Positions 32,818 to 49,402 of a DNA stretch of 64,000 bases are shown here, in pieces. The translations under genes were made by a program, and so were the position numbers. Origin of the DNA: Mycolicibacterium sarraceniae (lineage in GTDB: Bacteria; Actinomycetota; Actinomycetes; Mycobacteriales; Mycobacteriaceae); NCBI RefSeq assembly GCF_010731875.1, contig NZ_AP022595.1:310001-374000 (forward strand), written 5' to 3'. The stretch's first letter is position 1. Each line of letters opens with the position of its first letter. Under the pieces are notes generated by a model that saw only the letters and a list, made by a program, of their open reading frames with translations, was not told the DNA's origin and did not search any database.

Positions 32818-32973
32818 GGAGACAGTCTGAACGCAGGGGGTGACACGCCTGCTCGCATAGCCCCCGGCGGAATCCTCACGAACGTTCCGATGTACGGAGT
32901 GGACAGTCTTCCCTCCTAAATTAGACACTTCGGCCACAGGTAGGTGCGCCGGTCAGTCCCTAGCCTTGATGGC

Positions 32974-34326
32974 ATGACATTCCCGCTGATCGCCGGAACC
33001 GAACTGGCGCAAGTGCGACGCCTGGTCACCGAGATTCCGGGGCCACGCTCCCGCGAGCTGGCAGCCCGCCGCGCCGCTGCGCTGCCACACGGGCTGGTCA
33101 GCGGCACCGGTGTGTATGCCGCGGCAGCCGGCGGTGGCGTCCTAGTCGACGTCGACGACAACGCCTTCATCGACCTGGGCAGCGGCATCGCCGTCACCAC
33201 CGTCGGCAACTCCGCACCTGCGGTGGTGAGGCGGGCCACCGAGCAACTCGCGCAGTTCACCCACACATGCTTCCTGGCCACGCCCTACGAGGGCTACATC
33301 GCAGTCGCCGAACGCCTCAACGCCCTCACCCCCGGCACCCACGACAAGCGCACCGCACTGTTCAACACCGGTGCCGAAGCCGTCGAGAATGCCGTGAAGT
33401 ACGCCCGCGTCGCGACTGGGCGCCCGGCCGTCGTGGTGTTCGACCACGCATTCCACGGCCGCTCCCTGCTGGCGATGACGATGACCGCCAAGAACCAGCC
33501 CTATAAGCACCAATTCGGCCCGTTCGCCCCAGAGGTGTACCGGACACCGATGGCCTACCCCTACCGCTGGCCGTCTGGACCCGACAACTGCGCCGCAGAA
33601 GCATTCGGCGCGTTGACACAGTTGGTCGACAGCCAACTCGGTGCCGACGCGGTGGCCTGTGTGGTGGTCGAACCCATCCAGGGCGAAGGCGGATTCATCG
33701 TTCCCGCACCGGGATTTCTGACGATGGTGGCCGACTTCTGCCGCGAGCGTGGCATCCTGCTCGTCGCCGACGAGGTGCAGACCGGCATCGCGCGCACCGG
33801 CGCCTGGTTCGCCTGCGAGCACGAGGAGTTGGTACCCGACCTCATCACCACCGCGAAGGGGCTGGCCGGCGGCCTGCCGCTGGCTGCGGTCACCGGGCGC
33901 GCCGATGTCATGGACGCCGCACACGCCGGCGGTATCGGGGGCACCTATGCCGGCAACCCGGTGGCCTGCGCCGCCGCCCTCGGCGCGTTCGACGAAATCG
34001 AAACCAATGGACTGCTCGCCCGTGCCCGCGACATCGGCGAGCTGATGGTGCGCGAACTGCAGTCCATCGCCGCCAGCTCGGGTGTGATCGGTGAGATCCG
34101 CGGCCGCGGCGCCATGATCGCCGCCGAACTGGTCATCCCCGGCACCACCGAACCCAACCGCGACGCCGTCGCCGCGGTGTCCCGGCACTGCCACGACAAC
34201 GGTGTATTAACTTTAACCGCAGGCACTTTCGGCAACGTTCTGCGCTTCCTTCCGCCCCTGACCATCCCCGACGAGCTGCTGCTCGATGCCTTCGGCGTGT
34301 TGCGCGCCGGCTTTGCCACCCTCTGA
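32974..34326 (+). CDS. Class III omega-aminotransferase (4-aminobutyrate / 5-aminovalerate type)
   Basis: 450 residues, PLP-dependent. The cofactor is anchored by Lys295 in LITTAKGLAGGLPLAAVTGRA and Asp266 in LLVADEVQTGIARTG. NTGAEAVENAVKYAR and EPIQGEGGFI are GabT signatures. The likely reaction is 5-aminovalerate or GABA plus 2-oxoglutarate to the semialdehyde plus glutamate. It opens a four-gene run with glutaryl-CoA dehydrogenase, an ALDH relic and a CoA-transferase, which favours 5-aminovalerate. Gap to the next gene is 13 bp, so operonic. Start ATG 32974. Confidence 0.88.
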   Translation: MTFPLIAGTELAQVRRLVTEIPGPRSRELAARRAAALPHGLVSGTGVYAAAAGGGVLVDVDDNAFIDLGSGIAVTTVGNSAPAVVRRATEQLAQFTHTCFLATPYEGYIAVAERLNALTPGTHDKRTALFNTGAEAVENAVKYARVATGRPAVVVFDHAFHGRSLLAMTMTAKNQPYKHQFGPFAPEVYRTPMAYPYRWPSGPDNCAAEAFGALTQLVDSQLGADAVACVVVEPIQGEGGFIVPAPGFLTMVADFCRERGILLVADEVQTGIARTGAWFACEHEELVPDLITTAKGLAGGLPLAAVTGRADVMDAAHAGGIGGTYAGNPVACAAALGAFDEIETNGLLARARDIGELMVRELQSIAASSGVIGEIRGRGAMIAAELVIPGTTEPNRDAVAAVSRHCHDNGVLTLTAGTFGNVLRFLPPLTIPDELLLDAFGVLRAGFATL

Positions 34327-34339
34327 AAGGCACCCCGAT

Positions 34340-35509
34340 ATGACCGCACCGCTGGAGCTGTTTTCGACCGATCGTCTGCTTGACGCCGACGAGCGGGATA
34401 TCGCGGCAACCGTGCGCAAGTTCGTCGATACCCGGCTCCGCCCGAATGTCGGGGACTGGTTCGAATCTGCCACGCTGCCCAAGGAACTCGGTAAAGAGTT
34501 CGGTGCGCTGGGCTTGCTGGGTATGCACCTGCAGGGGTACGGGTGCGCGGGCACCAACGCGGTCAGTTATGGGCTGGCCTGTATGGAACTCGAGGCCGGT
34601 GACAGCGGTTTCCGCAGCTTCGTGTCGGTGCAGGGCTCGCTGTCGATGTTCTCCATCTACCGCTACGGCTCCGAGGAGCAGAAGAACGAGTGGCTGCCCC
34701 GGCTGGCCACCGGCGACGCGATCGGGTGCTTCGGGCTGACCGAGCCCGACTTCGGCTCGAATCCGGCCGGGATGCGAACCCGGGCCCGGCGCGACGGTAG
34801 TGACTGGGTCCTCGATGGTGCCAAGATGTGGATCACCAACGGCAACCTCGCCGATGTGGCCACGGTGTGGGCCAGAACCGGGGACGGCGACGGCGACATC
34901 AGCGGCTTCCTGGTCCCCACCGACACCCCGGGATTCACCGCCAACGTCATCCACAAGAAGCTGTCGCTACGGGCCTCGGTCACCTCCGAGCTGGTGCTCG
35001 ACAACGTCCGGCTGCCCGCCTCGGCACAGCTACCGCACGCCACCAGCCTCGGCGCACCGCTGTCCTGCCTCAACGAGGCGCGCTTCGGCATCGCGTTCGG
35101 CGCACTGGGCGCCGCCCGCGACAGCCTGGAGACCGCGATCGCCTACACCAGGGAACGCGAGGTCTTCGACCGGCCACTGTCGAGTTTCCAGCTGACCCAG
35201 GAAAAGCTGGCCAATATGACCCTGGAGCTGGGCAAGGGCATGCTGCTGGCCGTGCACCTCGGCCGGATGAAGGACGCCGAAGGCACCCGCCCCGAGCAGA
35301 TCAGCCTGGGCAAGCTCAACAACGTCCGCGAGGCGCTGGCCATCGCCCGCGAGTGCCGAACCCTGTTGGGCGGCAGCGGGATCACCCTGGAATACTCGCC
35401 GCTGCGGCACGCAAACAATCTCGAATCGGTGCTCACCTACGAAGGCACCTCCGAAATGCACCTACTCTCAATCGGGCGCGCCCTGACCGGACAGGCAGCG
35501 TTCCGCTGA
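34340..35509 (+). CDS. Glutaryl-CoA dehydrogenase-type acyl-CoA dehydrogenase
   Basis: A 389-residue flavoprotein. The GCDH-specific arginine lies in SGFRSFVSVQGSLSM (Arg92), equivalent to the residue that binds the glutaryl carboxylate. The catalytic base is Glu368 in TYEGTSEMHLL. ACAD blocks CFGLTEPDFGSNP and KMWITNG are present. It should oxidise and decarboxylate glutaryl-CoA to crotonyl-CoA, the exit of a cadaverine/piperidine/5-aminovalerate route. It follows the aminotransferase by 13 bp and is one base from the ALDH relic. Confidence 0.87.
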   Translation: MTAPLELFSTDRLLDADERDIAATVRKFVDTRLRPNVGDWFESATLPKELGKEFGALGLLGMHLQGYGCAGTNAVSYGLACMELEAGDSGFRSFVSVQGSLSMFSIYRYGSEEQKNEWLPRLATGDAIGCFGLTEPDFGSNPAGMRTRARRDGSDWVLDGAKMWITNGNLADVATVWARTGDGDGDISGFLVPTDTPGFTANVIHKKLSLRASVTSELVLDNVRLPASAQLPHATSLGAPLSCLNEARFGIAFGALGAARDSLETAIAYTREREVFDRPLSSFQLTQEKLANMTLELGKGMLLAVHLGRMKDAEGTRPEQISLGKLNNVREALAIARECRTLLGGSGITLEYSPLRHANNLESVLTYEGTSEMHLLSIGRALTGQAAFR

Positions 35510-35510
35510 G

Positions 35511-36258
35511 ATGACCAGCCCGAACGAACTCCGGCACTTGATCGCCGGACAGTGGCTCGTCGGCGCCGGCGACATGGTGACCAGCGTCAACCCCGCGCGG
35601 CCCCATGTGGTGGTCGCCGAGGGACACAGCGCGACGGTTGCCGATGTCTGCCACGCGGTCGCCGCGGCGGGCGAGGCGTCGGCGAGCTGGGCCCGAAAAC
35701 CGATACATCAGCGCGGTGCGGTGCTGCTGGCGGCCGCCGACGTGGTCGAGCGCAACGCAGCTGGGTGCGGTCATCACCGGCGCTGCACAACGCAACATTT
35801 ACCGCGGTCTCGGCACCGCAATGAACCACGGCGTCGAGGTGCTGACCGGCGGCCAGCCCTACTTCAAAGGCTTACTGGCCCAGGGATTCTTCGTCGCTCC
35901 CACGATCATGGAATTGACCGGCCCTGCCGACATCTGGTCCGAGGAGCTATTCGGCCCCGTGCTCGCCGTCAAACGCGCGACCGACGCCGACCAGGCATTC
36001 ACACTGGCCAACGACAGCGAATTCGGCTTGTCCACTGCGGTGTTCACCCAGGACCTGACCCACACACTCGCCGCCATCGAGCACATCGACGTCGGTGTGC
36101 TGCACATAAACTCCGAATCAGCCGGCGCCGACCCGCACGTACCGTTCGGCGGTGCGAAAAAAAGCGGACTGGGCCCCAAAGAACAAGGCGGCGCGGCCCG
36201 CGAGTTCTTCACCCACACCACCACGGTGTACCTACGCGGCGGGCAGGCCGGAGTATGA
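35511..36258 (+). pseudogene. Aldehyde dehydrogenase with its catalytic middle deleted
   Basis: The first about 83 residues (IAGQWLVGAGDMVTSVNPARP, ASASWARKPIHQRGAVLLAAADVVERNA) are an ALDH N-terminus. From about 35757 a different frame continues with the C-terminal third (LGAVITGAAQRNIYRGL, FFVAPTIMEL, WSEELFGPVLAVKRATDADQAFTLANDSEFGLSTAVF, PFGGAKKSGLGPKEQG). Roughly 230 residues, including the Rossmann fold, the general-base Glu and the Cys nucleophile, are missing at the junction. It was probably the glutarate-semialdehyde dehydrogenase of the pathway; a product from the remaining DNA cannot be active. Confidence 0.9.
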
Positions 36259-36300
36259 CGGCCCCGAAGGGTCGACGAAGAGTCTTGAGGCGGTGAACAC

Positions 36301-37401
36301 ATGGCAGCAGCCCTAGAAGGTCTGGTCGTGGTCGACTTCAGCCGGGTACTCGCCGGTCCGTACGCGACGATGATGCTCGGCGACTTCGGCGCCGAGGTGA
36401 TCAAGATCGAGCGCCCCGACGTCGGCGACGACACCCGGCAGTGGGGTCCGCCGTACGACTCCGACGGTGTCGCAACGTATTTCAACTCCGTTAATCGCAA
36501 CAAGCGGTCTGTCGCACTGGACCTGAGTGACTCCGATGGGCAGCGTGTCGCCCGCGAACTCGTGGCCGGCGCCGACATCGTGGTGGAGAACTTCCGGCCT
36601 GGCACGATGGAGAAACTGCACCTGGGTTACGACGACCTGCGCACCGTGCGACCCGACCTGATCTACTGTTCGATCACCGGTTTCGGCCGCGATGGCGGTG
36701 CCGCACTGCCGGGCTACGACCTGCTGGTGCAGGCGGTCGGCGGTCTGATGAGCGTCACCGGCACCGAGCCCGGTGATCCCACCAAAGCCGGTGTGGCATT
36801 GGTCGATGTGCTGGCCGGACTGCACGCCCTGGCGGGCATCCTGGCCGCGCTGGCCTACCGCGACCGCACCGGGCTGGGCCAACGCGTCGACACCAATTTG
36901 ATGGCGGTGCTGTTATCGTCGCTGGTGAACCAGGCCTCCGGCTATCTCGGCGCCGGCGTGGTGCCGTCGATCATGGGTAACCGCCATCCCAGCATCGCGC
37001 CGTACCAGGTGTTCGACACCGCCGACCGGCCGATCACCGTGGCCGTCGGAAACGATAAGCAATACCGGGCATTTTGCACCGTACTCGGACTTGCCGACCT
37101 GGCGGACGACCCGCGTTTCATCACCAACCCGCAACGGGTCGCGAACCGGGACGCATTGTGCGCCCTGATCGAACCCGCGCTCAAGGCCGCCGGCGCCGAC
37201 CATTGGTACCGGCGGTTGACCGCTGCCGGGGTGCCCGCGGGACCGATCAACGACGTCGCCGAGGCGTTCGCGTTCGCCGACCGGCTCGGTATCACCACCA
37301 CCGTTGCGGTTCCGGGCAGCGCCACCGCCCAGGTAGCCAACCCGGTGACGATGTCGGTTACTCCCGCCAGTTACCGCTGCGCCCCGCCCGCATTGGGCTG
37401 A
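36301..37401 (+). CDS. CaiB/BaiF (class III) CoA-transferase, possibly glutarate-specific
   Basis: 366 residues. The N-terminal LVVVDFSRVLAGPYATMMLGDFGAEVIKIERP and the catalytic Asp140 in PGYDLLVQAVGGLMSVTG are diagnostic. Next to glutaryl-CoA dehydrogenase, the most sensible reaction is CoA transfer from succinyl-CoA to glutarate. The C-terminus stops at VTPASYRCAPPALG, about 25-35 residues before the usual end of the family (which continues into a GxHTxEVL-like tail). It overlaps the 3' end of pucR by 31 bp, so it may be trimmed. Confidence 0.82.
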   Translation: MAAALEGLVVVDFSRVLAGPYATMMLGDFGAEVIKIERPDVGDDTRQWGPPYDSDGVATYFNSVNRNKRSVALDLSDSDGQRVARELVAGADIVVENFRPGTMEKLHLGYDDLRTVRPDLIYCSITGFGRDGGAALPGYDLLVQAVGGLMSVTGTEPGDPTKAGVALVDVLAGLHALAGILAALAYRDRTGLGQRVDTNLMAVLLSSLVNQASGYLGAGVVPSIMGNRHPSIAPYQVFDTADRPITVAVGNDKQYRAFCTVLGLADLADDPRFITNPQRVANRDALCALIEPALKAAGADHWYRRLTAAGVPAGPINDVAEAFAFADRLGITTTVAVPGSATAQVANPVTMSVTPASYRCAPPALG

Positions 37402-38903
37402 TCCTCGATCAACTGGCGGGCCTGCAGGGCGAGCCACAACTGGGCACGGCTGTCAGCCGATTCCAGGTCGTCGGACAGTAGGGCGCAGATACGCCGCATC
37501 CGGTTGCGCAGGGTATGGCGATGCACGCCCAGCTCGGCGGCGGCACCCGCCATCTGGCCGTGATGCTGCAGGAAAGCCGTCAATGTGGCGAGATTCTCGT
37601 CCGCCTCGCCGGCGTCGGTGAGCGGCCGCAGCAGACCGGCGAGCACGCGGAGTTCATCGGGGCTGCGACCAGCGAGTAGCACCCCGTATGCGCCCAGATC
37701 GTCATATTTGCCGATCGCCGAACCTGATCTGCATCGCGCGGCGGTTCGCGCCTGCTGCATACCAAGACCGAGGCCGGCGAAGCGGACGGTGGAACTGACG
37801 CCGCCTCCAGAGCCCGGCGGGAACCCTCCGGCGAGTGCCTCGGCCACTGCCTGAACCCGCCGCCTGCTCGCCGCGGTGGGCAGGATCGCCACGATCTCGT
37901 CGTCCAGCAGGGTCATCAGGTAGGGACCACCGTGATCGAGCACCGCGCCGAGGTTCCGTTCGGCATCCAGTACCGGCCCCAGTCCGTTGAGCACCAGCAC
38001 CACCACATCGGCACCGGGCTCAAAGCCGAAGTAGCGCAACACCCCGCTGTCGACATTGCCAGAGCCGGAGATCAGCTCGCGCGTCACGGCGGTGCGCAGC
38101 CGCTGCTCGGCCTCAGCGACCCGGGCAGGCTTCTCGGCCGCGATCGAGATCAACGAAACCGCATGGGCCACGAGCAGCCGCTCGGAATTGGTCAGCGGCT
38201 CCGCTGTGCGCACGCCGAGGTGGCCTCGCACGGTCCGAGCGGCCCGCAGGCCGGTGACCGATACGTAGGCCTGGCCGTCGAACGTGACGTACCCGCCGGT
38301 GCGCCGCAACGCAGCCGGTTGCGAATCCGATAGTGCAGCAACTAATTCCAGGTGTCCGGAGCCGGCCGCAGCCAAGGCCTTGCCGGCGGCATCGGTGACC
38401 ACCACCGCGGCCGGCAGACAGTCGGCCAGTGCGGAGACGGCGCCGGGGATGCCACCGCGCAATGTCGCGCGGGCGAGCACCCGCTGTTGATCGACCACGC
38501 GTTGCACCGACCGCAGTTCGTCGGCGCGCAGCGAATCGATCACCACCCGGGTGATCGCGATGAACGGCGTCGCCGGCGGGACCACCAGCACTGGCAGACC
38601 CAGTTCATCGCCGGCCGCCAGCACGGCGGCAGGCACATCGGAGATCGTCGTACCGGTGTCGACCGCCAGCGCGGCGATCCCCACCGCGACCAGCCGTCGG
38701 ACGTACGCGGTCTGCGCAGCTGCGTCGGCACCAATGTTGATACCGGTCGTCATCACCAGCTCCCCACCCGACAAATACGGCGTGGGGTCAGCCAATTCGA
38801 TGGCGTGCGCCCAGGTGATCTCGCGGTCGGCCGCCCCGGCCCCAGCGGCCAGCCTCAGACCCAGCGCCTCGACGTGCGCCAGGTCCCGCGCAGTGATCGC
38901 CAT
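37371..38903 (-). CDS. PucR family transcriptional regulator (CdaR-type)
   Basis: 510 residues from MAITARDLAHVEALGLRLAAG. Residues 1-130 form the PucR N-terminal sensory domain (GGELVMTTGINIG). About 280-420 is a GGDEF-like CdaR middle domain. The C-terminal helix-turn-helix is TLTAFLQHHGQMAGAAAELGVHRHTLRNRMRRICALL. Such proteins activate purine, amine or amino-acid catabolism. IS1380 copy 2 ends only 55 bp upstream of the start, so its native promoter may be replaced or separated from the amine operon. Confidence 0.88.
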   Translation of the reverse strand: MAITARDLAHVEALGLRLAAGAGAADREITWAHAIELADPTPYLSGGELVMTTGINIGADAAAQTAYVRRLVAVGIAALAVDTGTTISDVPAAVLAAGDELGLPVLVVPPATPFIAITRVVIDSLRADELRSVQRVVDQQRVLARATLRGGIPGAVSALADCLPAAVVVTDAAGKALAAAGSGHLELVAALSDSQPAALRRTGGYVTFDGQAYVSVTGLRAARTVRGHLGVRTAEPLTNSERLLVAHAVSLISIAAEKPARVAEAEQRLRTAVTRELISGSGNVDSGVLRYFGFEPGADVVVLVLNGLGPVLDAERNLGAVLDHGGPYLMTLLDDEIVAILPTAASRRRVQAVAEALAGGFPPGSGGGVSSTVRFAGLGLGMQQARTAARCRSGSAIGKYDDLGAYGVLLAGRSPDELRVLAGLLRPLTDAGEADENLATLTAFLQHHGQMAGAAAELGVHRHTLRNRMRRICALLSDDLESADSRAQLWLALQARQLIEDQPNAGGAQR

Positions 38904-39091
38904 GCCGACAATCTTTTGGCGCGGGCGCGTCCTTGCGGCCTCGACACGCCGCGCTAAGCCTGAATCCACCGACGGGTGGTGGTGAGTAGGGTTGATCTTC
39001 GTTGGCGTCGGTCTTCCGGGTGTGGGCGTGAGGTAGTTGCTGGTCTGTCCAGCTTTTCCTGTGTGTTCCGGTCGGGCCTTTCGGCGGTTGG

Positions 39092-40495
39092 TCAGGTTGT
39101 CGCAGGTAGTGGTGGGCTGTGTCCGATGGTGTTGTGCCACAGTGCAAGCCAGGACCTGGACCACGGCCAGTGGGAGGGTAGGTGCAGGATCGGGCGGCGC
39201 TGGGGACGGGCCAGTCGGGCGGGAACATTGACGATGGTGCGTCGCAGTGTCGATCCGCGTGCTCGGGTGTGCCGCTCTCCGGCTAGGACACCGGCCGCGC
39301 GCAGCAGGTTGTGGGCAATCGCCGAGCACAAGATCCAGGCCGAGTTCGCGCCGAACCGGCCCGAGGGCAGATGCGCCAGCGGTCCGTCGATGAGATCGGC
39401 GAATACGGTCTCGATGATCGCGTGCTGGCGGTGGGTGATGTCGGCCTGATCGACGGGCAGGTCGGTGTTGGTGAGAAACGGGTGATACCGCCACACCGGG
39501 AACAGCGTGTCACGGAAACGGGCGTCCTTGACGCGGCGGACCACCAATCGGGCCGTGATGCGATCGGGGTGGAGGCGAATGCGGTGTAGTCGATTTCGGC
39601 GACCTCGGCATCAGAGATCCAGGTACCGGTGTCGGGGTCTTGGACGGCGCCGGGATAACGCACTGGCGTCCACGCCGTCTCGTCGATCCCGGCGAGCGCG
39701 CGTTCGATGGCGGGATTGCGGGTCATCACCATCGAGAACCGCGCACCATGGCGCACGCAGGCGGTAATCACCGCGCGCGAGCCGTAGGCCGAATCCCCGC
39801 GCACCAGAATCTGCCCGCTGGCTCCCCGCGGCGCGGGCGGTGCCGATCGCCTGGGCGACCATCCGCCCGGCCCCCTTACTGGAGTTGGCCCGCCCGGCGC
39901 GTAGCCGCATCCCGGCGATCACCGGCGCAGCACCCGCGGTGCTGATCGTGGTGGCCAGCGGGGACAGTCCCTTGCGCAGGATCTGCTTGCCGGCGATCTT
40001 GGTGTGCCCGTAGGAGGCGCCTTGTTTGGCGTGCCCGTAGACCGGGCGTAGCAGCGAGTCGATGTCGATGAACACCCGCTCATCGGCGCCGGGTAGCAAC
40101 TCGACCCGCTGACACAATGCCACCAGGTGCTCGCGTAGCACCGATTCCAACTGGCGGGCGTGCCCGAAGGTGAACTCCCGCAACAACGTTCCGACCGTCG
40201 ACGGTGCGTACACCCCGCCGAAGAGGGTCTTCATACCGCCCGACCGGACCACGTCGAGGTCGTCGATGCAGTCCGCGCCCGCGCACATGCCCGCCACCAC
40301 GGTGGCCAGTTTCGGGGCGGGGTTCGCCGACCCGGACTTGATCCGCGGCGTCGTGATGCGGACCTTCTCATCAAACAACCTGCCCAGCCCGGTCTGTTCG
40401 GCCAACGTCATGACCGGCACAAGTCCGGCGCACGACACGAGATTGTCATCGTCGAACACCGCTGACTCCGCGGCGAACCTATGCGAAACTTGCAC
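39092..40495 (-). pseudogene. IS1380-family transposase with two frameshifts
   Basis: Starts at GTG 40495 (VQVSHRFAAESAVFDDDNLVSC). The first frame runs to about 39825, where G4 replaces G3 (GCGGGGAGCC). The second frame (RGDSAYGSRAVITACVRHGARFSMVMTRNPA) ends near 39558, where C4 replaces C5. The third frame (VVRRVKDARFRDTLFPVWRYHPF, HRQHAIIETVFADLIDG, NSAWILCSAIAHNLLR) reaches the stop at 39092. It is homologous to copy 1 along its whole length, but diverged. Both breaks are one-base homopolymer changes. Confidence 0.87.
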
Positions 40496-40498
40496 TGG

Positions 40499-40566
40499 AA
40501 GTGCCTTTCCGAACTGGACCCGATTGCTGCCTGAGAACACCAATCATCCCAGTTCAGAGGGCACTT
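40499..40566 (-). promoter_or_regulatory. Inverted repeats over the transposase leader and RBS (copy 2)
   Basis: On the transposase strand AAGTGCC (40566-40560) pairs with GGCACTT (40505-40499), and GAACTGG (40555-40549) pairs with CCAGTTC (40517-40511). The second arm covers the GGAAAGG ribosome-binding site before GTG 40495. Copy 1 has a similar fold at the same position, with different base pairs. Confidence 0.6.
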
Positions 40567-40615
40567 TCTTCACTCCGACACTCGGCTAACGCCACCGCCC
40601 GTCGGTGGATTCAGG

Positions 40616-41428
40616 CTAAGGCGTGCCAACACGCGCGGTGCCAGCCCGGGTTTGGCGCACTGCCGCCGCGGCCCGGACGAACGCACCGAATAACGCCTGC
40701 CGGTCGGTCGCCGGGCCGTCCTCGTCCTCGGGATGCCACTGCACCCCGACGTACCAACGATTGGGGTCCTCGGTTGCCTCCACGATGCCGTCCAGTGCCC
40801 GCGCCGCGACGACCAACCCCTCCCCCACGGTGTCGACGGCCTGATGATGTCCGGACCGGGCGATGACCCGATCGGTGCCCAGGATTTCCGCCAGCCGGGT
40901 GCCGGCCACGATATCGATCGGCTCGTTGACGAATTCGGGCTCACCGGGTGCACCGTGGTGCAGCGCGTAATCCTCGATATCGCCGATCAGGGTGCCGCCA
41001 CGGGCCACGTTGAGCAGCTGGGAACCCCGGCAGATCCCGAGCACCGGCCGGCCGGCGTTCTGCGCGGCGGCGATTGCGGCCAGTGCGTCGCGATCGGCGC
41101 GCACGTCCACACCGTAGGCCTTGGGATTCGGAGCGCTCACGCCGTAGCAGGAGCCGTCCACGTCGCCGCCGCCGAGCAGCAGCAGTCCATCGAACTCCGC
41201 TGCACTGCTGGGCTTTTCGATCGGAACAGACCCGTCCCACAGTTCGTACTCGGCATCCAGTTCGACCAGGGTCGTCAGTGCGACGCGGGTGAACCTGGTG
41301 ATCAGCTCGACGTCGGCCGCAGTGATGTCGGGGTAATTCAGGGGGGCCAACACACAGATACGCGCCTGCGGGCGGGCCGGCGGCGGCCGGTGCGGGATGA
41401 CGTCGGCGCGGGTGACACGGTCGGTCAC
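40616..41428 (-). CDS. Class I glutamine amidotransferase, gamma-glutamyl-GABA hydrolase (PuuD-like), paralogue 1
   Basis: 270 residues. The nucleophile is Cys133 in PVLGICRGSQLLNVARGG, and the catalytic His lies in YVGVQWHPEDEDG (peptidase C26 fold). It would remove the gamma-glutamyl group from a gamma-glutamylated amino acid or amine. It is the last gene of the P450 operon; its ATG overlaps the stop of paralogue 2. Its TAG stop is created by the duplicated CTAAG of IS1380 copy 2, so the original C-terminus may have been a little different. Confidence 0.85.
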   Translation of the reverse strand: MTDRVTRADVIPHRPPPARPQARICVLAPLNYPDITAADVELITRFTRVALTTLVELDAEYELWDGSVPIEKPSSAAEFDGLLLLGGGDVDGSCYGVSAPNPKAYGVDVRADRDALAAIAAAQNAGRPVLGICRGSQLLNVARGGTLIGDIEDYALHHGAPGEPEFVNEPIDIVAGTRLAEILGTDRVIARSGHHQAVDTVGEGLVVAARALDGIVEATEDPNRWYVGVQWHPEDEDGPATDRQALFGAFVRAAAAVRQTRAGTARVGTP

Positions 41429-42138
41429 GAAGAGTCCTTTCGTTTGCCGGCCCGGTCAATCAGGTCGGCGAATAATGCGGTGTCGGTAGCGCAGCCGCCG
41501 TGCCGGTCTTCGGGATGCCACTGCACCGCGATGATGTCGGCGCGGCAGTGCTCAACAGCTTCAACCACGCCGTCGCCGGCCATCGCCGTCACCACGAGAT
41601 CGGCGCCCAGCCGGTCAATCGCTTGGTGATGATAGGACGACACATCGATGTGATCGGATCCCACGATGAGGTGCAGCCGCGACTCGCGTAGTACGCGAAC
41701 ATCGTGAATCGCGTTGTGGTGTGGCGTCGTCGTCTCTGATATGTGCTGGCACAGGGTGCCGCCGGCGGCGACATTGAGGATTTGCATACCCCGACAGATC
41801 GCCAGCATCGGCAACCCCAGGTCGATGACGGCCCGGCTGACGGCTAGGTCATAGTCGTCCTGGAACAGCACGGTGTCCTGGGTCCGGGGGTCGGCCTGCG
41901 CACCGTAGCGGATCGGGTCGACGTCTGCGCCGCCGGGCATCAGCACACCGTCGAAGCGGTCCAGCCGGTCCGGAAGTTCCATCGCCGGGTCGCCGGCAGG
42001 TCCATGCAGCACCACCGGCTCGCCGCCCGCCGCCCACACCGCCTCACACAGCGCTTCGGCGGCCAGGGTGGCCGAGAAGCGCAGGATCGCAACCTGTTCG
42101 GCGCGACGCCCAACCACCGCCACCAGCGGCCGAGTCAC
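41425..42138 (-). CDS. Class I glutamine amidotransferase, PuuD-like, paralogue 2
   Basis: 237 residues from VTRPLVAVVGRR. The nucleophile is Cys115 in MLAICRGMQILNVAAGGTL, and the His is in IIAVQWHPEDRHG. The GTG at 42138 overlaps the TGA of the upstream binding-protein gene (GTGA), and its own stop overlaps the next ATG. Two such hydrolases in one operon suggests two gamma-glutamyl substrates or a heteromeric enzyme. The glnA4-Rv2859c pair in M. tuberculosis has one hydrolase of this type beside a glutamine-synthetase-like gene. Confidence 0.84.
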   Translation of the reverse strand: MTRPLVAVVGRRAEQVAILRFSATLAAEALCEAVWAAGGEPVVLHGPAGDPAMELPDRLDRFDGVLMPGGADVDPIRYGAQADPRTQDTVLFQDDYDLAVSRAVIDLGLPMLAICRGMQILNVAAGGTLCQHISETTTPHHNAIHDVRVLRESRLHLIVGSDHIDVSSYHHQAIDRLGADLVVTAMAGDGVVEAVEHCRADIIAVQWHPEDRHGGCATDTALFADLIDRAGKRKDSS

Positions 42139-42839
42139 GTCCCGAAGGGATAGTCCAAGGTGGGCAACCACTGCTCCCACACCTTGCGCAACCGCCCGGA
42201 CTCGACAAGCCGGGCAAGCGCGTCGTTGAGCTCGGCCAGCGTGTCGGGACGGTCCTTGGCCACCGCGATGCCCCACTGGTTGGCGGTCTGAACGGTGAAT
42301 GCCAGCTCGTAGTCCGGATGAGTGGCACCCAACGGCACGAACACCACGTCGTCGTCGACGACGGCGTCGACTTCACCGGCCGATAGTGCGGCCAGCATGT
42401 CGGCGTAGACGTCATCGGAACCGGCCCCGAATGCGACTGGCACTGCGCCGGTGAAGGTTTCGACCAGCGTCATGTTGGTGCTGTTCTCGATGGCCGCTAC
42501 CTTGCGGCCGACGAGACCCTCCGGCCCGTTGATGCCCGAGCTGCGGCGTACCAGCACGCCCTCATGAAAGACGGCATAGGGCCGGGTGAAGTCGACTTGC
42601 GCCTGACGTTCTGCGGTGATGCCCTGTCCGCACAGCACCGCGTCGGCGTCGCCGCGCTGTACCGCCGGGATCATGTCCACCCAGGGAACCCGAATCCACT
42701 CGACCGGACGGCCGAGTTCGTCCCCCAGCGCTTCGGCCACTCCGGGTTCATAGCCGGTGCGCCCGTTCTGCGGAGTCCACAGCGAAAACAGCGGCGGCGC
42801 ATCGGCATCCAGGCAGGCCAGTCTCAACGGTGTGCTCAT
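42135..42839 (-). CDS. Family-3 substrate-binding-protein-like domain without signal peptide
   Basis: 234 residues with the fold of amino-acid/amine ABC binding proteins: GYEPGVAEALGDELGRPVEWIRVPWVDMIPAVQRGDADAVLCGQGITAERQAQVDFTRPYAVFHEGVLVRR, then GRKVAAIENSTNMTLVETF, AGEVDAVVDDDVVFV and NQWGIAVAKD. The N-terminus MSTPLRLACLDADAPPLF is not a signal peptide or lipobox, and no ABC permease or ATPase lies nearby. It starts inside the stop of the ligase gene (42836-42839). The protein is probably cytosolic and may sense or carry an intermediate. No known function fits. Confidence 0.75.
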   Translation of the reverse strand: MSTPLRLACLDADAPPLFSLWTPQNGRTGYEPGVAEALGDELGRPVEWIRVPWVDMIPAVQRGDADAVLCGQGITAERQAQVDFTRPYAVFHEGVLVRRSSGINGPEGLVGRKVAAIENSTNMTLVETFTGAVPVAFGAGSDDVYADMLAALSAGEVDAVVDDDVVFVPLGATHPDYELAFTVQTANQWGIAVAKDRPDTLAELNDALARLVESGRLRKVWEQWLPTLDYPFGT

Positions 42840-44221
42840 GGCAGGTCATCCCAGTACATATCGCGCTCCCAATCGGTCACATATCCACAGAACCGGGCCC
42901 ACTCGTCGGCGTGAAAATCGACGAGAAGCCCGGACAGCTCAGGCCCGAGAGCCTCGGCGAGCACGCCATCGGAGCGAAACGCGCTGATGGCCTCGCCAAG
43001 GGTCAGTGGCAGGGCACCGAAGCGGTCGTCGACCGGCGCATCGTAGGACGAACCCTGGGTGGGTGCGCCGGGATCGGTGAAGTTCTTCAGCCCGTCCTCA
43101 CAGGCCGCCAGGATCACCGCGTGCGATAGGTACGGGTTGACGGCGGCATCGGGCAACTTGTATTCGAGCCGACCGACAGTCGACAGTCGGACGGTGCAGG
43201 TCTTGTTGTCCAGACCCCAGTTGATCCGCGAGGGCGCGAACTGTCCGGCGTCCCAATATCGCTTGTAAGAGTTCACGGTGGAACCGTTGATCAGCATGGC
43301 ACCCGCCGAATGCGCCAGCAGACCCCCCAGGGCGTGCTTGCCGATCTCGGACAGATGCAGTTCGGTAACCCCCGGATCAGCCAGCACGTTCACGCCGTCG
43401 CGCCACAGGCTGAAGTTGTGGTGACAGCCGTTGCCCATCATCCCGGTCGCCGGCTTGGGTATAAAGCTGGCTTCAATGCCCAGTTCGCGGGCCACCTGCT
43501 TGCAGATCTGTCGGTAGGTGACCAGCCGGTCGGCGGTGAGGTCGGCGCGGTCGTACATGAAGTTCAGCTCGACCTGGTACTCGTCCTCGTAGTCGCCTTC
43601 GACCATGTCCAGGCCCAGCTCCTGGGCGTAAGCGATCACCTTCTTGACGATCGGACGGTTCCGCTCGAGGTGCTCGATGTTGTAGGCCGGGCTGGAGCCG
43701 GGCCGAAAGTGCGCTTCCAAACCCTCGCCACGCCATGTCATTTCGGGTTCGCAGCCGGTACGTAGCTCCAGCCCGGTACGATCGGTGAATCCGATGTGCA
43801 TTCGCCGCAGCAATCCGCGGGTGTCACAGGCGAATTCGGCACCGGCCCGCTCGGCCAGATGGTCGGGTTCGTAGAGCCGGCAGAACACCCGGGCGAAGTT
43901 GGTGTCCCACGGCAACACCGCGAACGTCTCGAGGTCGGGCATCGCCGTGTATTCGGGGGCGTTGACGCCGCCGGCCAGCAGTACGCCGTCGCGGGTGCCT
44001 TGCAGATTGGCCGCCGCCGTCTGGTGCTGTTGCACCCCTTTGACCGCTAGCCGCTCGAAATGCCTTGCTGGGACTACTTTTCCGACAACGCGACCGGTGA
44101 TGGTGACGGCCTGGAAGTAGACCAGTTCGACATTGCGATCGGCAATGGTGGCCAGTACCTCGGCCAGTTCCGGGCCGTTGGCGTTGGCTTGCCGGTGTGC
44201 GTCCAGCGGTGTGGTGCTCAT
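42836..44221 (-). CDS. Glutamine synthetase-like gamma-glutamylamide ligase
   Basis: 461 residues of the GS fold. Metal and substrate blocks are recognisable: ELRTGCEPEMTW, DYEDEYQVELNFMY, MMGNGCHHNFSLW, INGSTVNSYKR and GRLEYKLPDAAVNPYL. Relative to true GlnA, the ATP-side HxH is HHN and the RIExR block is RLEYK. There is no adenylylation loop. This suggests ligation of glutamate to an organic amine rather than ammonia assimilation. It lies nine bases after the P450 stop and is coupled to the binding-protein gene. Confidence 0.85.
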   Translation of the reverse strand: MSTTPLDAHRQANANGPELAEVLATIADRNVELVYFQAVTITGRVVGKVVPARHFERLAVKGVQQHQTAAANLQGTRDGVLLAGGVNAPEYTAMPDLETFAVLPWDTNFARVFCRLYEPDHLAERAGAEFACDTRGLLRRMHIGFTDRTGLELRTGCEPEMTWRGEGLEAHFRPGSSPAYNIEHLERNRPIVKKVIAYAQELGLDMVEGDYEDEYQVELNFMYDRADLTADRLVTYRQICKQVARELGIEASFIPKPATGMMGNGCHHNFSLWRDGVNVLADPGVTELHLSEIGKHALGGLLAHSAGAMLINGSTVNSYKRYWDAGQFAPSRINWGLDNKTCTVRLSTVGRLEYKLPDAAVNPYLSHAVILAACEDGLKNFTDPGAPTQGSSYDAPVDDRFGALPLTLGEAISAFRSDGVLAEALGPELSGLLVDFHADEWARFCGYVTDWERDMYWDDLP

Positions 44222-44230
44222 GGATGGTCC

Positions 44231-45448
44231 TTAAGACTCAGGGGTGGGGGTAAAGCCGATCGGCAGCCGATTGGGGCCGGTGTTCCCCGAGTCCGGCAGC
44301 CAGCTCGCGCCGGGCAGTTCTCGGGGGTCGACCATCCGGCGGGCCAACAAGGGCAGGGCTTCGCTCATATCGGCTCGCGCGACAAAGTGGCCGAGGCAGT
44401 AATGCACACCGGCGCCAAACCCAAAGTGCGGCTTGCGTTCTGCAGTGATATCGAAATCTGGCGTAAAGACCCGCGGGTCGGTACCGCCCGACTCACCGTA
44501 GAGGTGCACGGTGGTTCCGGCCCGAAGCTGCACGCCCTCGTATTCGAAGTCCTCGATCACTTCACGCGTCACCCAGCGCGTCGTCGGGTTGAGTCGCATG
44601 ACCTCCTCGACAGCCTTGCCCCCGAGGTCCGGCCGCCGCGCGAGCAGTCGCCACTGATCGGGGTGGGCCAGGAAAGTCTGCATAGCCAGGCCCAGCTGAT
44701 TGCGGGTGGTGTCAAAGCCGCCGAAGATCAGCAGCACCAGTCCGTCGCGCAGCTCCTCGTCACTCAATCGGCCGTCGTCGGGTTCTGAAGCGTTGACCAG
44801 GGCCGTGACGAAATCGTCGCGGGGGTTGATCCGGCGATCCGCCACCAGCGCATCGCAGTAGTCATACAACCGCTGCAGTGCGGCCTCGATGGCGGGCAGA
44901 TCTTGTTTGAGCGTCACCCCCATTGCCAGGCCGAGTGTCGTGGACGCGGTGGCGATGACCTGCCATTCCTCTTCGGGGAAACCGAGCATGATGGCGATGA
45001 CTCGGGCCGAGTAGGGCTCGGCGAACTCGCTGACGAATTCACAACGGTCCGGTTCGGCAAAGTTGTCGATGAGTTCTGCTGCCAAAGTCTGGAACCGGGG
45101 CACCAGCTCGGCGATGAGCTTCTGGGAGAAGGCCGGGGTCATCAATCGGCGCAGCCGGCGATGCTCCTCGCCCTCCTTGTTGAGGATCCAACTGGCCCAC
45201 CACCGCGCGAACGGTCCTTCGGTAACGCCGTTGTGGGCCGGCCACGCGATGCTGCCCTGCCGCAGCAGGCGGCTCTTGAGCAGCTTGTTCATCTGTTCGT
45301 AACGCAGCACCGCGATCCCGTACGGCGTTGTCGCGTACCAGCTACGTTCCCGGGCGGCGTGCACCTCCGGCGAGGTGATCGAAAACGCCGGATCGGCGAC
45401 GTCGAAAAAAGGCACCTGGTCGGCGGCCGTCGCGGAGACGGAAGACAT
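44231..45448 (-). CDS. Cytochrome P450, probable amine monooxygenase
   Basis: 405 residues from MSSVSATAADQ, chosen over the start at 45469 because GGAGG stands eight bases upstream. The I-helix is LVLLIFGGFDTTRNQ, ExxR is EEVMRLNP (Glu282-Arg285), and heme-binding FGFGAGVHYCLGHFVARADM carries Cys351. It is soluble. No ferredoxin or ferredoxin reductase is adjacent, so electrons must come from elsewhere. Mycobacterial P450s beside GS-like genes hydroxylate cyclic amines (piperidine, pyrrolidine, morpholine) next to nitrogen; that is the working hypothesis. First gene of the operon. Confidence 0.88.
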   Translation of the reverse strand: MSSVSATAADQVPFFDVADPAFSITSPEVHAARERSWYATTPYGIAVLRYEQMNKLLKSRLLRQGSIAWPAHNGVTEGPFARWWASWILNKEGEEHRRLRRLMTPAFSQKLIAELVPRFQTLAAELIDNFAEPDRCEFVSEFAEPYSARVIAIMLGFPEEEWQVIATASTTLGLAMGVTLKQDLPAIEAALQRLYDYCDALVADRRINPRDDFVTALVNASEPDDGRLSDEELRDGLVLLIFGGFDTTRNQLGLAMQTFLAHPDQWRLLARRPDLGGKAVEEVMRLNPTTRWVTREVIEDFEYEGVQLRAGTTVHLYGESGGTDPRVFTPDFDITAERKPHFGFGAGVHYCLGHFVARADMSEALPLLARRMVDPRELPGASWLPDSGNTGPNRLPIGFTPTPES

Positions 45449-45484
45449 GGGCGCTACCTCCAGAGCCACAGGAACAGTCTGTAA

Positions 45485-45513
45485 ATACTCTAAAACTAGA
45501 TTGTTACTGTCAA
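45485..45513 (-). promoter_or_regulatory. SigA-type promoter of the P450 operon with an internal dyad
   Basis: On the minus strand TTGACA (45513-45508), 17 bases, GAGTAT (45490-45485). Between the boxes lies TCTA-GTTT-TAGA (45500-45489), a 4-4-4 dyad that a GntR or PucR dimer could occupy. About 35 bp of leader separates the boxes from the P450 start. Confidence 0.5.
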
Positions 45514-45568
45514 GCGATTCGCGTTAACTCGCCGTAACGACGGCTTCAGCCCGGATAGCTACGGACGC

Positions 45569-46273
45569 TCAACCCGCGGCCGGATCGGCGAGCGCCAGCA
45601 CCCAACCGATACCGAGCGGCAACTCGGCGACCTCACGAAAATCCCCAGCCTGCGGCATCGTGGGCAGCCGCGACCCCACGATCCAGCGCGGTGTGTTCGC
45701 GGCTACGACTCGCCGCTCGGTGTTGATGATGACGGCATCGGCCGTTGCGCCGTGCAGCACCTCCAGCAGCCGCCGCTCAATCTCCCCGACCACCAGATCG
45801 GCCCCGGCGACGCCGAGGAAAACGCCGTCGGCGACCACCGGGACCGCCGCGGTGACGGTGTACATATCCGACCCGCTGTAGTCGACGTAGGGGCCGTACG
45901 CCACCCGCGCTTGCCCACGCTGCGGTAGCTGGAACCAGTCCATCTGGAGGTAGTCGTAGACGTCAACACTGGTCGGGTCGAAGTTCAGCCTCAGGCGCGC
46001 CACCCGGGTATTTTGCCGCTGCCACCAGACCAGGTAGCGCTCCAAGCCGTCGACGATCAAGGGCGCGGCGATGAATCCCATGCCCCAGGCCAGCGGCTCG
46101 TCGGCAACCAGATCGGCCAGCAACCGTTGCAGACCGCTGAGATTCGCCTCGCTGAGCGGGGCGCGGACCGGGCGGCTGCGAAGTACCTCGCCGGCGATGC
46201 GATCCAGCAGCACGTACGCCGGCTCCAAGCGTTCCGAGGCCTGCTGCGCCAGCCGATCCGCCTCGGTCGTCAC
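45569..46273 (-). CDS. Soluble Cache/PDC sensor-domain protein
   Basis: 234 residues. The core is a periplasmic-type double-Cache fold: ERYLVWWQRQ, VYDYLQMDWFQLPQRGQARVAYGPYVDYSGSDMYTVTAAVPVVADGVFLGVAGADLVVGEIERRLLEVL, and AVIINTERRVVAAN. Such domains bind amino acids and amines, usually outside the cell between two membrane helices. Here there is no membrane segment and no output domain. It overlaps the GntR gene by ATGA, so it is likely a cytosolic ligand-binding partner of that regulator. Confidence 0.75.
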   Translation of the reverse strand: MTTEADRLAQQASERLEPAYVLLDRIAGEVLRSRPVRAPLSEANLSGLQRLLADLVADEPLAWGMGFIAAPLIVDGLERYLVWWQRQNTRVARLRLNFDPTSVDVYDYLQMDWFQLPQRGQARVAYGPYVDYSGSDMYTVTAAVPVVADGVFLGVAGADLVVGEIERRLLEVLHGATADAVIINTERRVVAANTPRWIVGSRLPTMPQAGDFREVAELPLGIGWVLALADPAAG

Positions 46274-47010
46274 GACGCACCTCGCCCGACAGTCAGGTTC
46301 ACGTTGACCTGCGTCAACCGCGCCAGCTGACCCATGATGTGGGCCTCGGCCAGCCTGCGCGCCTCGGCCGCGTTCTCGGCAGCCACTGCCGCCGAAATCG
46401 CATGCAGTTCCTCGACGTAGGGGTCCACCTGCACGACGGGCTCGACCGGTAGCCAGATCAGCCCGGCAACGTCGGCCTGCAGGTTGGCCTCGCGGCGGGC
46501 CAGCCGAGCCGACTGCGAAGCGATCGCGACCTGGATGTGAAACCGGCTGTCGGCGCGGATCCGGTCCCCCAGCGTCACCGCCGATCCGAGCTGGTCAGTG
46601 AGGGCGAACAGGCGTCGCACGGCGTAAGGTGCCGCCCGTTCGGCGGCGAGCCGGGCGGCCTGACCGGCGATGGCGGTGTGCTCGTCGAACAGATCGCGCA
46701 CATCCGAAATACTCATGGCGGCCAGCCGGGCGGTCAGCTGCTCGACCGGTGGCCCGGCGGGCCGGCACACGAAGGACCCGCCGCTGCGGCCCCGCCGCGT
46801 CTCGACCAGGCCCTGATCGCGGAGTGTGGCCAGCGCTTCGCGGACGGTCATCGGCGCCACGCCGAACTGGCCTGCCAGATCGACTTCCACTGGCAGCCGT
46901 TCAGCGTCGTCGAGCAATCCGAGGTGGATCGCTTCGGTAATGCGCTGCACGATCTCGTCGGCACGCCCGATCGGCGCCTCCCCAGCGACCAGCGGCGACA
47001 ACGACGACAC
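46270..47010 (-). CDS. GntR/FadR-family transcriptional regulator
   Basis: 246 residues. The winged helix-turn-helix is DEIVQRITEAIHLGLLDDAERLPVEVDLAGQFGVAPMTVREALATLRDQGLVETRRGRSGGSFV. An FCD-type all-alpha ligand domain follows, with His in RFHIQVAIAS and EELHAISAAV. The GTG at 47010 has GGAGG nine bases upstream; longer frames reach 47127 without support. It is divergent from the permease across 141 bp and coupled to the Cache gene. The probable local repressor of amine catabolism, comparable to PipR of the piperidine locus. Confidence 0.87.
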   Translation of the reverse strand: MSSLSPLVAGEAPIGRADEIVQRITEAIHLGLLDDAERLPVEVDLAGQFGVAPMTVREALATLRDQGLVETRRGRSGGSFVCRPAGPPVEQLTARLAAMSISDVRDLFDEHTAIAGQAARLAAERAAPYAVRRLFALTDQLGSAVTLGDRIRADSRFHIQVAIASQSARLARREANLQADVAGLIWLPVEPVVQVDPYVEELHAISAAVAAENAAEARRLAEAHIMGQLARLTQVNVNLTVGRGAS

Positions 47011-47151
47011 CGTCGCCCACCTCCTGCCCCTGCTCGGTGCAGGAAATTTACCGGATTCTGGATCAATTCTGCCGTTCACGTTGCCGGATAAACAATAGAA
47101 CTGTAGTTTTTGCTCACCGAAATTCATGCCCCGACGGCAGAAAGCAGCTCC

Positions 47152-48654
47152 ATGGCCTCACCATCGAATCCCTCGTCGGCCAGCGAGGGCTACTACGACT
47201 TCCACGACGAGGACGACGCGGCGCATCTGCATGCGCTCGGCTATAAGTCCGAGTTCAAACGGGACATGAGCCCGTGGGCCAACTTCTCGCTGGGCTTCAC
47301 CTACCTGTCCCCCGTTGTCGGGGTGTACACGCTGTTCGCCTTTGCCCTGGCCACCGGCGGGCCGCCGATGATTTGGAGCTTCCTTATCGTGGGCCTGGGC
47401 CAGCTGCTGGTGGCCCTGGTGTTCAGCGAAATCGTCGCGCAATTCCCGGTGGCCGGCGGCGTGTACCCGTGGGCTCGACGGCTGTGGGGACGCAGGTACG
47501 CCTGGATGACCGGCTGGATCTACATGGTCGCGCTATTGGTGACCATCTCGTCGGTGGTGTACGGAGCCGGACCCTACATCGCCGCGGCATTCGGCATCGA
47601 AGCGACCGTCGACAACACCATCGCCTTCGCATTGGCGCTGCTGGCGCTGGCCACCACTATCAACTTCATGGGTACGAAAGTCCTTGCGCGCGCAGCCATC
47701 ATCGGATTCAGCGCCGAGCTGATCGGCGCTCTGGTGGTGGGTGTCTGGCTGCTGGTCTCACACCGAGAGCACAGCCTCTCGGTGATCTTTGATCGGATGG
47801 GCGCCGGCGGGGACGGCAATTACCTGTGGGCCTTCGCCGCTGCCGCGCTGATCGGCATCTACCAGTACTACGGTTTCGAGGCCTGCGGCGATGTCGCCGA
47901 GGAGGTTCCCAACCCTGGCCGCCTGATTCCCAAGGCGATGCGCCGCACCATCTACGTCGGTGGTGCGGCCGCGACGTTCGTCTGCCTGGCACTGGTGCTG
48001 GCCGTCACCGATATCCCAGCCGTCATCGCCGGCACCGAGACCGACCCGGTCAGCACCCTGCTCAACGACGCCTTCGGCAGCGTGGGCGCCCGCATCGTGC
48101 TGTTCATCGTGCTCATCTCGTTCCTGTCCTGCGCGATGAGCTTGCAGGCGGCCGCGAGCCGGCTGGCGTACTCGTACGGCCGCGACGGCATGATCATGGG
48201 AAGCACGTTGCTCAAGAAGTTCTCGCCCACCCGGCACGTCCCGCCCTATGCGCTGCTGTTGGCCGCGCTGGCGCCCGCGGTGATCGTGATTGGTTCGAAG
48301 TTCTCCACCGACGCCATCACCAAGATCATCAGCTTCGCAGCCTTCGGCATCTACCTGGCTTTCCAGATGGTGGTGTTCGCTGCGCTTCGCGCCCGACTCA
48401 AGGGCTGGGTGCCCAGCGGCAAGTACCGGCTGGGACGGTGGGCCGTGGCCGTCAACGTCGCTGCACTGATCTACGGCGTCGTCGCGATGATCAACATGGC
48501 CTGGCCCCGGACACCCGGTGCCCCGTGGTACGACAACTGGATAGTCGCGCTCTCCGCAGTGATCGTGGTGGGAATCGGCTTGGTATACATGGTCATTCAC
48601 CCGCTCCACGACCGCAGCAGCGCACCCTACGACGATGCCATCCCCAAGCGCTGA
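47152..48654 (+). CDS. APC superfamily amino acid/amine permease
   Basis: 500 residues with 12 membrane segments (FSLGFTYLSPVVGVYTLFAFAL, FPVAGGVYPWARRLWGRRYAWMTGWIY, GFEACGDVAEEVPNPGRLIPKAMRRTIYVGG). The cytosolic ACGDVAEEVPNPGRxIPKA loop is the APC signature, seen in GABA/choline/ethanolamine permeases. A 45-residue polar N-terminus precedes the first helix. The ATG at 47152 is preferred to TTG 47110. Likely importer of the island's amine substrate, controlled from the shared GntR intergenic region. Confidence 0.86.
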   Translation: MASPSNPSSASEGYYDFHDEDDAAHLHALGYKSEFKRDMSPWANFSLGFTYLSPVVGVYTLFAFALATGGPPMIWSFLIVGLGQLLVALVFSEIVAQFPVAGGVYPWARRLWGRRYAWMTGWIYMVALLVTISSVVYGAGPYIAAAFGIEATVDNTIAFALALLALATTINFMGTKVLARAAIIGFSAELIGALVVGVWLLVSHREHSLSVIFDRMGAGGDGNYLWAFAAAALIGIYQYYGFEACGDVAEEVPNPGRLIPKAMRRTIYVGGAAATFVCLALVLAVTDIPAVIAGTETDPVSTLLNDAFGSVGARIVLFIVLISFLSCAMSLQAAASRLAYSYGRDGMIMGSTLLKKFSPTRHVPPYALLLAALAPAVIVIGSKFSTDAITKIISFAAFGIYLAFQMVVFAALRARLKGWVPSGKYRLGRWAVAVNVAALIYGVVAMINMAWPRTPGAPWYDNWIVALSAVIVVGIGLVYMVIHPLHDRSSAPYDDAIPKR

Positions 48655-49362: not shown

Positions 49363-49402
49363 GCGGTCCGTTCGTGTCGGACCTTCCTGCCATGATGTTG
49401 TT

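Follow-up and report, generated by a model that had tools for sequence, protein, structure and literature searches.

A candidate cyclic-amine catabolic island joined to a glutarate unit in Mycolicibacterium sarraceniae

Results

A gene island of two joined modules

We analyzed a 64,000-nucleotide stretch of the Mycolicibacterium sarraceniae genome (the window; C1:310001-374000 of the single-contig 4.83-Mb genome) and the gene island that it carries between comF and lpqB, at 32944-48654 of the window. Positions are those of the window unless prefixed with C1. The island consists of two joined modules. The amine module encodes a GntR regulator, a Cache-domain protein, a cytochrome P450, a glutamine synthetase (GS)-like ligase, a protein with a solute-binding-protein (SBP) fold and one or two hydrolases, together with an APC permease. 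The glutarate unit comprises PucR, caiB, an aldehyde dehydrogenase (ALDH) gene and gcdH, and it also occurs alone. We hold, with moderate confidence, that this is a catabolic island for cyclic or secondary amines of the mycobacterial pip/mor kind, which, joined to the glutarate unit, would lead from the amine to crotonyl-CoA. A preliminary description of this DNA had listed an aminotransferase, a glutaryl-CoA dehydrogenase with Arg92 and Glu368, an ALDH relic, CaiB, a P450, a GS-like ligase, an SBP-fold protein, two PuuD-like hydrolases, PucR, Cache and GntR proteins and an APC permease, and all of these genes are present. Its merged route from amine to crotonyl-CoA is upheld in its parts (a P450 presumed to be of the pip/mor kind, the ligase residues, the hydrolases and the glutarate tail) but not as a single unit, since there are two modules and the glutarate unit is also found by itself.

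Recurrence of the amine module

A ligase search of the genome collection returned 102 relatives, of which the best 80, with ligase identities down to 51%, were taken as loci. Each gene was assigned once, and the module counts are lower bounds, as several contigs end early. Hosts included mycobacteria, Nocardioides, Streptomyces, Actinomadura, Leucobacter, Paenarthrobacter, Pseudomonas and others. The window ligase (Gln-synt_C; 42836..44221, minus strand) shares 98% identity with one from Mycolicibacterium helvum.

The P450 gene (44231..45469, minus strand in the window) was present in 75 of the 80 loci and lay upstream of the GS gene, on the same strand and within 3.1 kb, in 73. The SBP-fold gene (SBP_bac_3, amino-acid-binding type; 42135..42839, minus) was found in 79 loci and stood directly behind the GS gene in 78; in the window, the two genes overlap by 4 bp, with the SBP ATG lying over the GS stop codon. 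At least one PuuD-like (Peptidase_C26) hydrolase was encoded in 70/80 loci and two in 58/80 (hydA in 67, hydB in 59). The window has both hydA (41425..42138, minus; the frame is open from 42276, with a likely GTG start at 42138) and hydB (40616..41428, minus). GntR and Cache were each present in 66/80 loci and the APC permease in 63/80. The window genes for the GntR/FCD regulator (46270..47127, minus; the true start is probably within the frame) and the Cache protein (45569..46273, minus) overlap by 4 bp, and the permease gene (AA_permease; 47110..48654, plus) is divergent. P450, SBP, hydA, GntR, Cache and APC were found together in 55/80 loci, and one locus (L086) has the ligase without any other module gene. 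A promoter scan of 40500-47300 gave no sites, against 0.8 expected, and we do not count as a promoter a TTGACA-like sequence that is visible ahead of the P450.

The Gordonia plasmid pGKT2 (L149, 7488-14499) carries the GntR-Cache-P450-GS part of the module beside a further P450 and a flavin adenine dinucleotide (FAD) oxidoreductase. The match to GS extends over 85% of the query length, and no GS gene is listed for this stretch.

A P450 presumed to be of the PipA/MorA kind

The window P450 shares 82% identity with P0138, a P450 of Mycolicibacterium smegmatis, and 80% with Q5EGS5 (P0197); we infer that these two mycobacterial proteins are of the PipA/MorA (piperidine/morpholine) family. In the available excerpt of PMC9477822, piperidine induces PipA, and MorA of Mycobacterium sp. 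HE5 oxidizes morpholine with a ferredoxin and a reductase. The same excerpt gives ~52-53% identity for Gulosibacter P450s with PipA of M. smegmatis and MorA of HE5, and describes glutamine synthetase genes, with locus tags following those of the Gulosibacter P450s, that are over-expressed. Leucobacter P450s are 49-52% identical to the window P450, which fits the Gulosibacter values.

Two sampled genomes with a P450 96% identical to P0138 carry a full gene set within 17 kb: gabT, gcdH, ALDH, caiB, PucR, hydB, hydA, SBP, GS, ferredoxin, P450, Cache, GntR, APC and ALDH-B. This set is the full form, and the window holds an eroded version of it. The joined cluster is not unique to the window: full forms exist in other mycobacteria. 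On Ruegeria and Paracoccus plasmids (L150, L151), P450s 54-55% identical to that of the window adjoin two consecutive GS-like genes together with amidotransferases.

The ligase and the order of steps

We compared the ammonium-site columns of the ligase with those of GlnA from the same genome (L128). They read FDGSS and GYEAP in GlnA but HQTAA and GQFAP in the window ligase; one row (L129), a wrong open frame, was left out of the comparison. The Asp and Glu of these columns, which we take to function in ammonium binding, are absent from the window ligase and are kept in 0/16 aligned relatives; the best solved relative, a glutamate-methylamine ligase, likewise lacks that Glu. With both ammonium-site residues missing, the window protein is probably a gamma-glutamyl-amine ligase. 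An ammonia-using glutamine synthetase, the outcome that the preliminary description had named as contrary to its proposal, was set aside for the same missing residues. A second GS-like gene, which also lacks the flap Glu, lies beside a PuuD-like hydrolase gene in the same genome (C1:3,150,876-3,152,529; L130, L133).

Mycobacteria convert piperidine to 5-aminovalerate and pyrrolidine to 4-aminobutyrate. The substrate, the order of steps and every activity in the following route are predicted from the observed gene content, linkage, residues and fold. The APC permease would import the amine, most likely piperidine, and the P450 would hydroxylate the carbon next to the nitrogen, with ring opening to give 5-aminopentanal. 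The GS-like ligase would then cap the freed amine with glutamate and block re-cyclization, as in the Puu pathway; the cytosolic SBP-fold protein may bind the gamma-glutamyl intermediate through its amino-acid head group. An ALDH would oxidize the capped aldehyde and a PuuD-like hydrolase (hydA/hydB) would free 5-aminovalerate, which gabT and ALDH-A would convert to glutarate and CaiB and GcdH to crotonyl-CoA. Carbon derived from pyrrolidine would leave the route after gabT. The Cache and GntR proteins would detect the amine inside the cell.

The alternative that survives best is that glutamylation comes first: a primary amine, either an alkylamine or cadaverine, would be turned by the ligase into its gamma-glutamyl amide, which the P450 would oxidize before the hydrolases release the product. 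We regard this order as doubtful. The same parts (permease, ligase, P450, ferredoxin, reductase and amidotransferase) occur in Arthrobacter aurescens TC1 according to the excerpt of PMC6776027, and glutamylation precedes oxidation, there by a dioxygenase, in the 1-naphthylamine and aniline systems of the excerpted PMC11335346. However, HE5 MorA, paired with its own ferredoxin and reductase, oxidizes free morpholine (PMC9477822, excerpt), and the window P450 is close to what we presume to be the MorA family. In addition, the plasmid records gave no Arthrobacter match to either the ligase or the P450 of the window at E 1e-60, although the presence of pTC1/pTC2 in the collection was unchecked. 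We favor a P450 that acts first on a cyclic amine over a linear amine or prior glutamylation. The classical Puu route for cadaverine was provisionally set aside, as there was no FAD amine oxidase among the scanned island proteins.

The glutarate unit and erosion of the window copy

The gabT gene (32944..34326, plus; PF00202) encodes a class III aminotransferase (4-aminobutyrate / 5-aminovalerate) that scores above two NCBIfam cut-offs for 4-aminobutyrate transaminases (NF004714 and TIGR00700). The gcdH product (34340..35509, plus) has Arg92 and Glu368, as counted on the alignment, and its best PDB match is a glutaryl-CoA dehydrogenase (E 7e-233); it falls below the cut-off of the NCBIfam equivalog NF045552. 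Judged by its sequence, it is a glutaryl-CoA dehydrogenase. The family III CoA-transferase encoded by caiB (36301..37401, plus) is nearest to the succinate-glutarate CoA-transferase family NF052585, at 366 bits against a cut-off of 750. The PucR-type regulator (37371..38903, minus) has its start placed at the first ATG outside an insertion sequence (IS).

Between gcdH and caiB lies the relic of ALDH-A (35511..36252, plus), which is 99% identical to an intact copy at C1:1,903,981-1,905,438 but is frameshifted and lacks 716 bp internally, the ends overlapping by 9 bp where they meet. The gcdH-ALDH tract (34349-36252) is 99.0-99.7% identical to C1:1,903,981-1,906,600, which includes the near-identical second gcdH (C1:1.905-1.907 Mb) and where ALDH is intact and ALDH-B precedes gcdH. 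The shared tract is almost exactly the two coding regions, and it suggests gene conversion or recent duplication between two operons. The window ALDH lost its 716 bp after the tract was shared. One further genome (G180) has an ALDH-B-gcdH-ALDH-caiB-PucR operon like the second locus at 1.90 Mb.

The IS (about 38959..40615, minus), which has a split DDE_Tnp_1_4 transposase and CTAAG at either side, sits at the hydB/PucR junction. The genome has five other near-full copies at 99% identity, and hydB is still open. The sole Rfam match, to the small RNA family Ms_IGR-7 (RF02469, 86.8 bits), falls on the end of the IS (40496-40614, plus), and this family may include IS-borne sequence.

A small ferredoxin was encoded in 45/80 module loci, in most of them immediately after the P450; 32 loci had a reductase and 11 another reductase. 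The window has no ferredoxin or reductase in cis, and its P450 and GS genes are only 9 bp apart; the nearest ferredoxin gene in the genome, at C1:412265, is 53% identical to that of a relative. Nor is there an ALDH-B beside the window permease, unlike in some relatives. With these losses and the broken ALDH, the island is not the complete one that it had appeared to be.

We asked whether the island has decayed and lost its function in this strain, and we consider this unlikely. The deleted ALDH-A, the missing ALDH-B and the IS at the hydB/PucR junction speak for decay, as does the lack of redox partners in cis where more than half of the related loci have a ferredoxin. Yet the other genes are open frames that keep the residues conserved in their families, intact ALDH-A, gcdH and ALDH-B genes exist at 1.90 Mb, and 25/80 related loci are equally without the ferredoxin and either reductase. 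In this genome, the ALDH steps could be supplied from the second locus, and electrons could come from the ferredoxin in trans.

Linkage of the two modules

We profiled the ligase (E 1e-180 or better) and caiB (at least 69% identity) in 297 Mycobacterium genomes. The ligase was detected in 33 and caiB in 48. Among the ligase-bearing genomes 26/33 had caiB, compared with 22/264 of the others (Fisher p 4e-18, uncorrected for ancestry). The two genes were within 14 kb of each other in 21/33 genomes, at ~5 kb in 13, at 10-13 kb in seven and at 6.5 kb in the window, and the linked modules have two arrangements. The preliminary description had called for a search for co-occurrence in other actinobacteria, and its expectation is borne out by this linkage and by the recurrence of the module in 80 loci.

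Stretches from 15 of the 22 ligase-free genomes with caiB were examined. PucR, caiB, ALDH and gcdH occurred together in 10/15, PucR in 12/15 and gabT in 3/15. The amine module was found in none of the 15, apart from one 29% APC-like match and one ALDH-B match. PucR, at first grouped with the amine genes, thus belongs to the glutarate unit. In contrast to the module-free loci, gabT is present in every one of the 12 mycobacterial loci that share the arrangement of the window. Outside the mycobacteria, the module adjoins gcdH (64-66%) and caiB (53-55%), with caiB first, in Nocardioides daeguensis, Microtetraspora glauca and two Streptomyces. Given these different arrangements, the glutarate unit and the amine module seem to have come together more than once. 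It is very unlikely that an unrelated glutarate/lysine-type unit adjoins the amine module by chance: each is found without the other, but they are linked in two distance classes in mycobacteria and in another gene order in the four non-mycobacterial loci, and gabT is added mainly where they are linked, although the counts carry less weight because of shared ancestry.

A cytosolic SBP fold and a predicted amine sensor

A Cys, a His and a Glu of hydB are invariant in the alignment. The SBP-fold protein has the fold type and the head-group residues of amino-acid-binding members, and the head-group Arg and Asp are invariant in 79/79 rows. No export signal was found in the window protein or in 13 relatives, some of whose rows begin a few residues late, and there are no ABC-transporter genes among the island genes. 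On these two grounds, a transporter SBP was set aside. An enzyme resembling cyclohexadienyl dehydratase was also set aside; the ancestral binding protein AncCDT-1 was among the matches, which is not decisive. We know of no role for a cytosolic amino-acid-binding-protein fold behind a ligase. Tentatively, we suggest that the GS-coupled protein could grip the glutamyl head group of the amino-aldehyde conjugate and hand on or transform the conjugate. A transporter-type receptor would then have been recruited to a soluble gamma-glutamyl shuttle step, controlled by an intracellular amine receptor that was once an extracellular sensor.

The Cache protein is a stand-alone domain that forms a two-gene unit with the GntR transcription factor. 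An intracellular dCache_1AM protein with a transcription factor has been described in Actinobacteria, Mycobacterium among the genera (PMC10104139, excerpt). In our alignment (67 rows), the aromatic pair W113-F/Y114 and the final D159 are conserved and were mapped by eye to the amine-binding motif; the best PDB match is 3lib (E 6e-5). We predict that the Cache protein is an intracellular amine sensor.

Position of the island

The island is flanked by a comF-like gene (32182-32937) and an LpqB-domain gene (51435-53201). The reported insertion between comF and lpqB holds as to these flanks, but the IS lies between PucR and hydB, and a DUF222 gene (49277-50434) lies between the permease and lpqB. 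A homolog of the DUF222 gene (65%) is present in L127, near another glutarate unit. At the lpqB loci of 18 relatives, comF was near lpqB in 7/18 short stretches. In seven longer stretches, comF was 0.04-1.8 kb from lpqB in four, 5 kb away in one and absent from two, and none of the seven contained an island gene. Conversely, none of the 102 tested loci of the module or the glutarate unit showed a homolog of comF or lpqB. Within our sampling, the position of the island is therefore particular to the lineage of the window. We set aside foreign origin by composition because GC fractions (0.657-0.693 in island pieces, 0.647-0.667 in flanks) were uninformative.

Discussion

Several observations weigh against a cyclic-amine route that runs through to crotonyl-CoA. 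The window copy is itself eroded, with a broken ALDH, no ferredoxin in cis and an inserted IS, and CaiB and both ALDHs fall under the NCBIfam cut-offs for the proposed activities. The identities of P0138 as PipA and Q5EGS5 as MorA are themselves presumed. Among the 80 loci, some on short contigs, there was no hydrolase match in 10, including four from Pseudomonas, and no ALDH match in 31. The Pseudomonas loci indicate that deglutamylation is not universal, and the 10 loci lower our confidence in the route. In the stretches examined, 59/80 loci had no gcdH that reached 60% identity (gcdH was found in 21, caiB in 15, gabT in 20 and any ALDH in 49), so the module often works without the glutarate tail, and 7/33 ligase-bearing Mycobacterium genomes lack caiB. 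Mycolicibacterium chlorophenolicum has two module copies in one strain. One (L022) has the P450 and no glutarate tail in the stretch examined, and the other (L038) has the tail but is without P450, Cache and GntR; both argue against a tight bond between the modules.

The core module is of a known kind, whereas the joined pathway, the catabolic setting of an amine sensor and the binding-protein fold in the cytosol are new and testable. No description of the joined route was found in the openly licensed literature searched, although one may exist elsewhere. Cyclic secondary amines also occur as pollutants from industry. To our knowledge, the reason for a GS-like gene beside pip/mor-type P450s is unexplained, and the gene set offers it a role, the capping of a ring-opened amino-aldehyde, that predicts intermediates. 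For the orphan intracellular amine sensor published from actinobacteria, the island suggests both a class of ligand and a setting in catabolism, and it draws attention to the amino-acid-binding-protein fold that so consistently follows the ligase.

Like the mycobacterial pip/mor loci, the window island has a P450, close to those presumed to belong to this family, a GS-like gene adjoining it and a GntR-type regulator, the family to which PipR presumably belongs. Unlike them, it lacks ferredoxin and reductase, and its hydrolases, SBP fold, Cache protein and glutarate unit are undescribed in the excerpt of PMC9477822. The Ipu (isopropylamine) clusters, such as that of Arthrobacter aurescens TC1, resemble it in their permease, gamma-glutamylamide synthetase, P450 and amidotransferase, and have a ferredoxin and a reductase as do some related loci (PMC6776027, excerpt). 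However, they act on a linear primary amine, glutamylate before oxidation and use other downstream enzymes, and no SBP-fold or Cache protein appears in the gene list of that excerpt. The Puu-type gamma-glutamyl routes for putrescine and polyamines (GlnA3 kind) share the GS-like ligase and the PuuD-like hydrolase, but the window has a P450 in place of the amine oxidase, plus the glutarate tail. Finally, the excerpt of PMC10104139 gives neither a catabolic context nor a ligand for the pair of dCache_1AM protein and transcription factor, whereas here such a pair heads an amine module.

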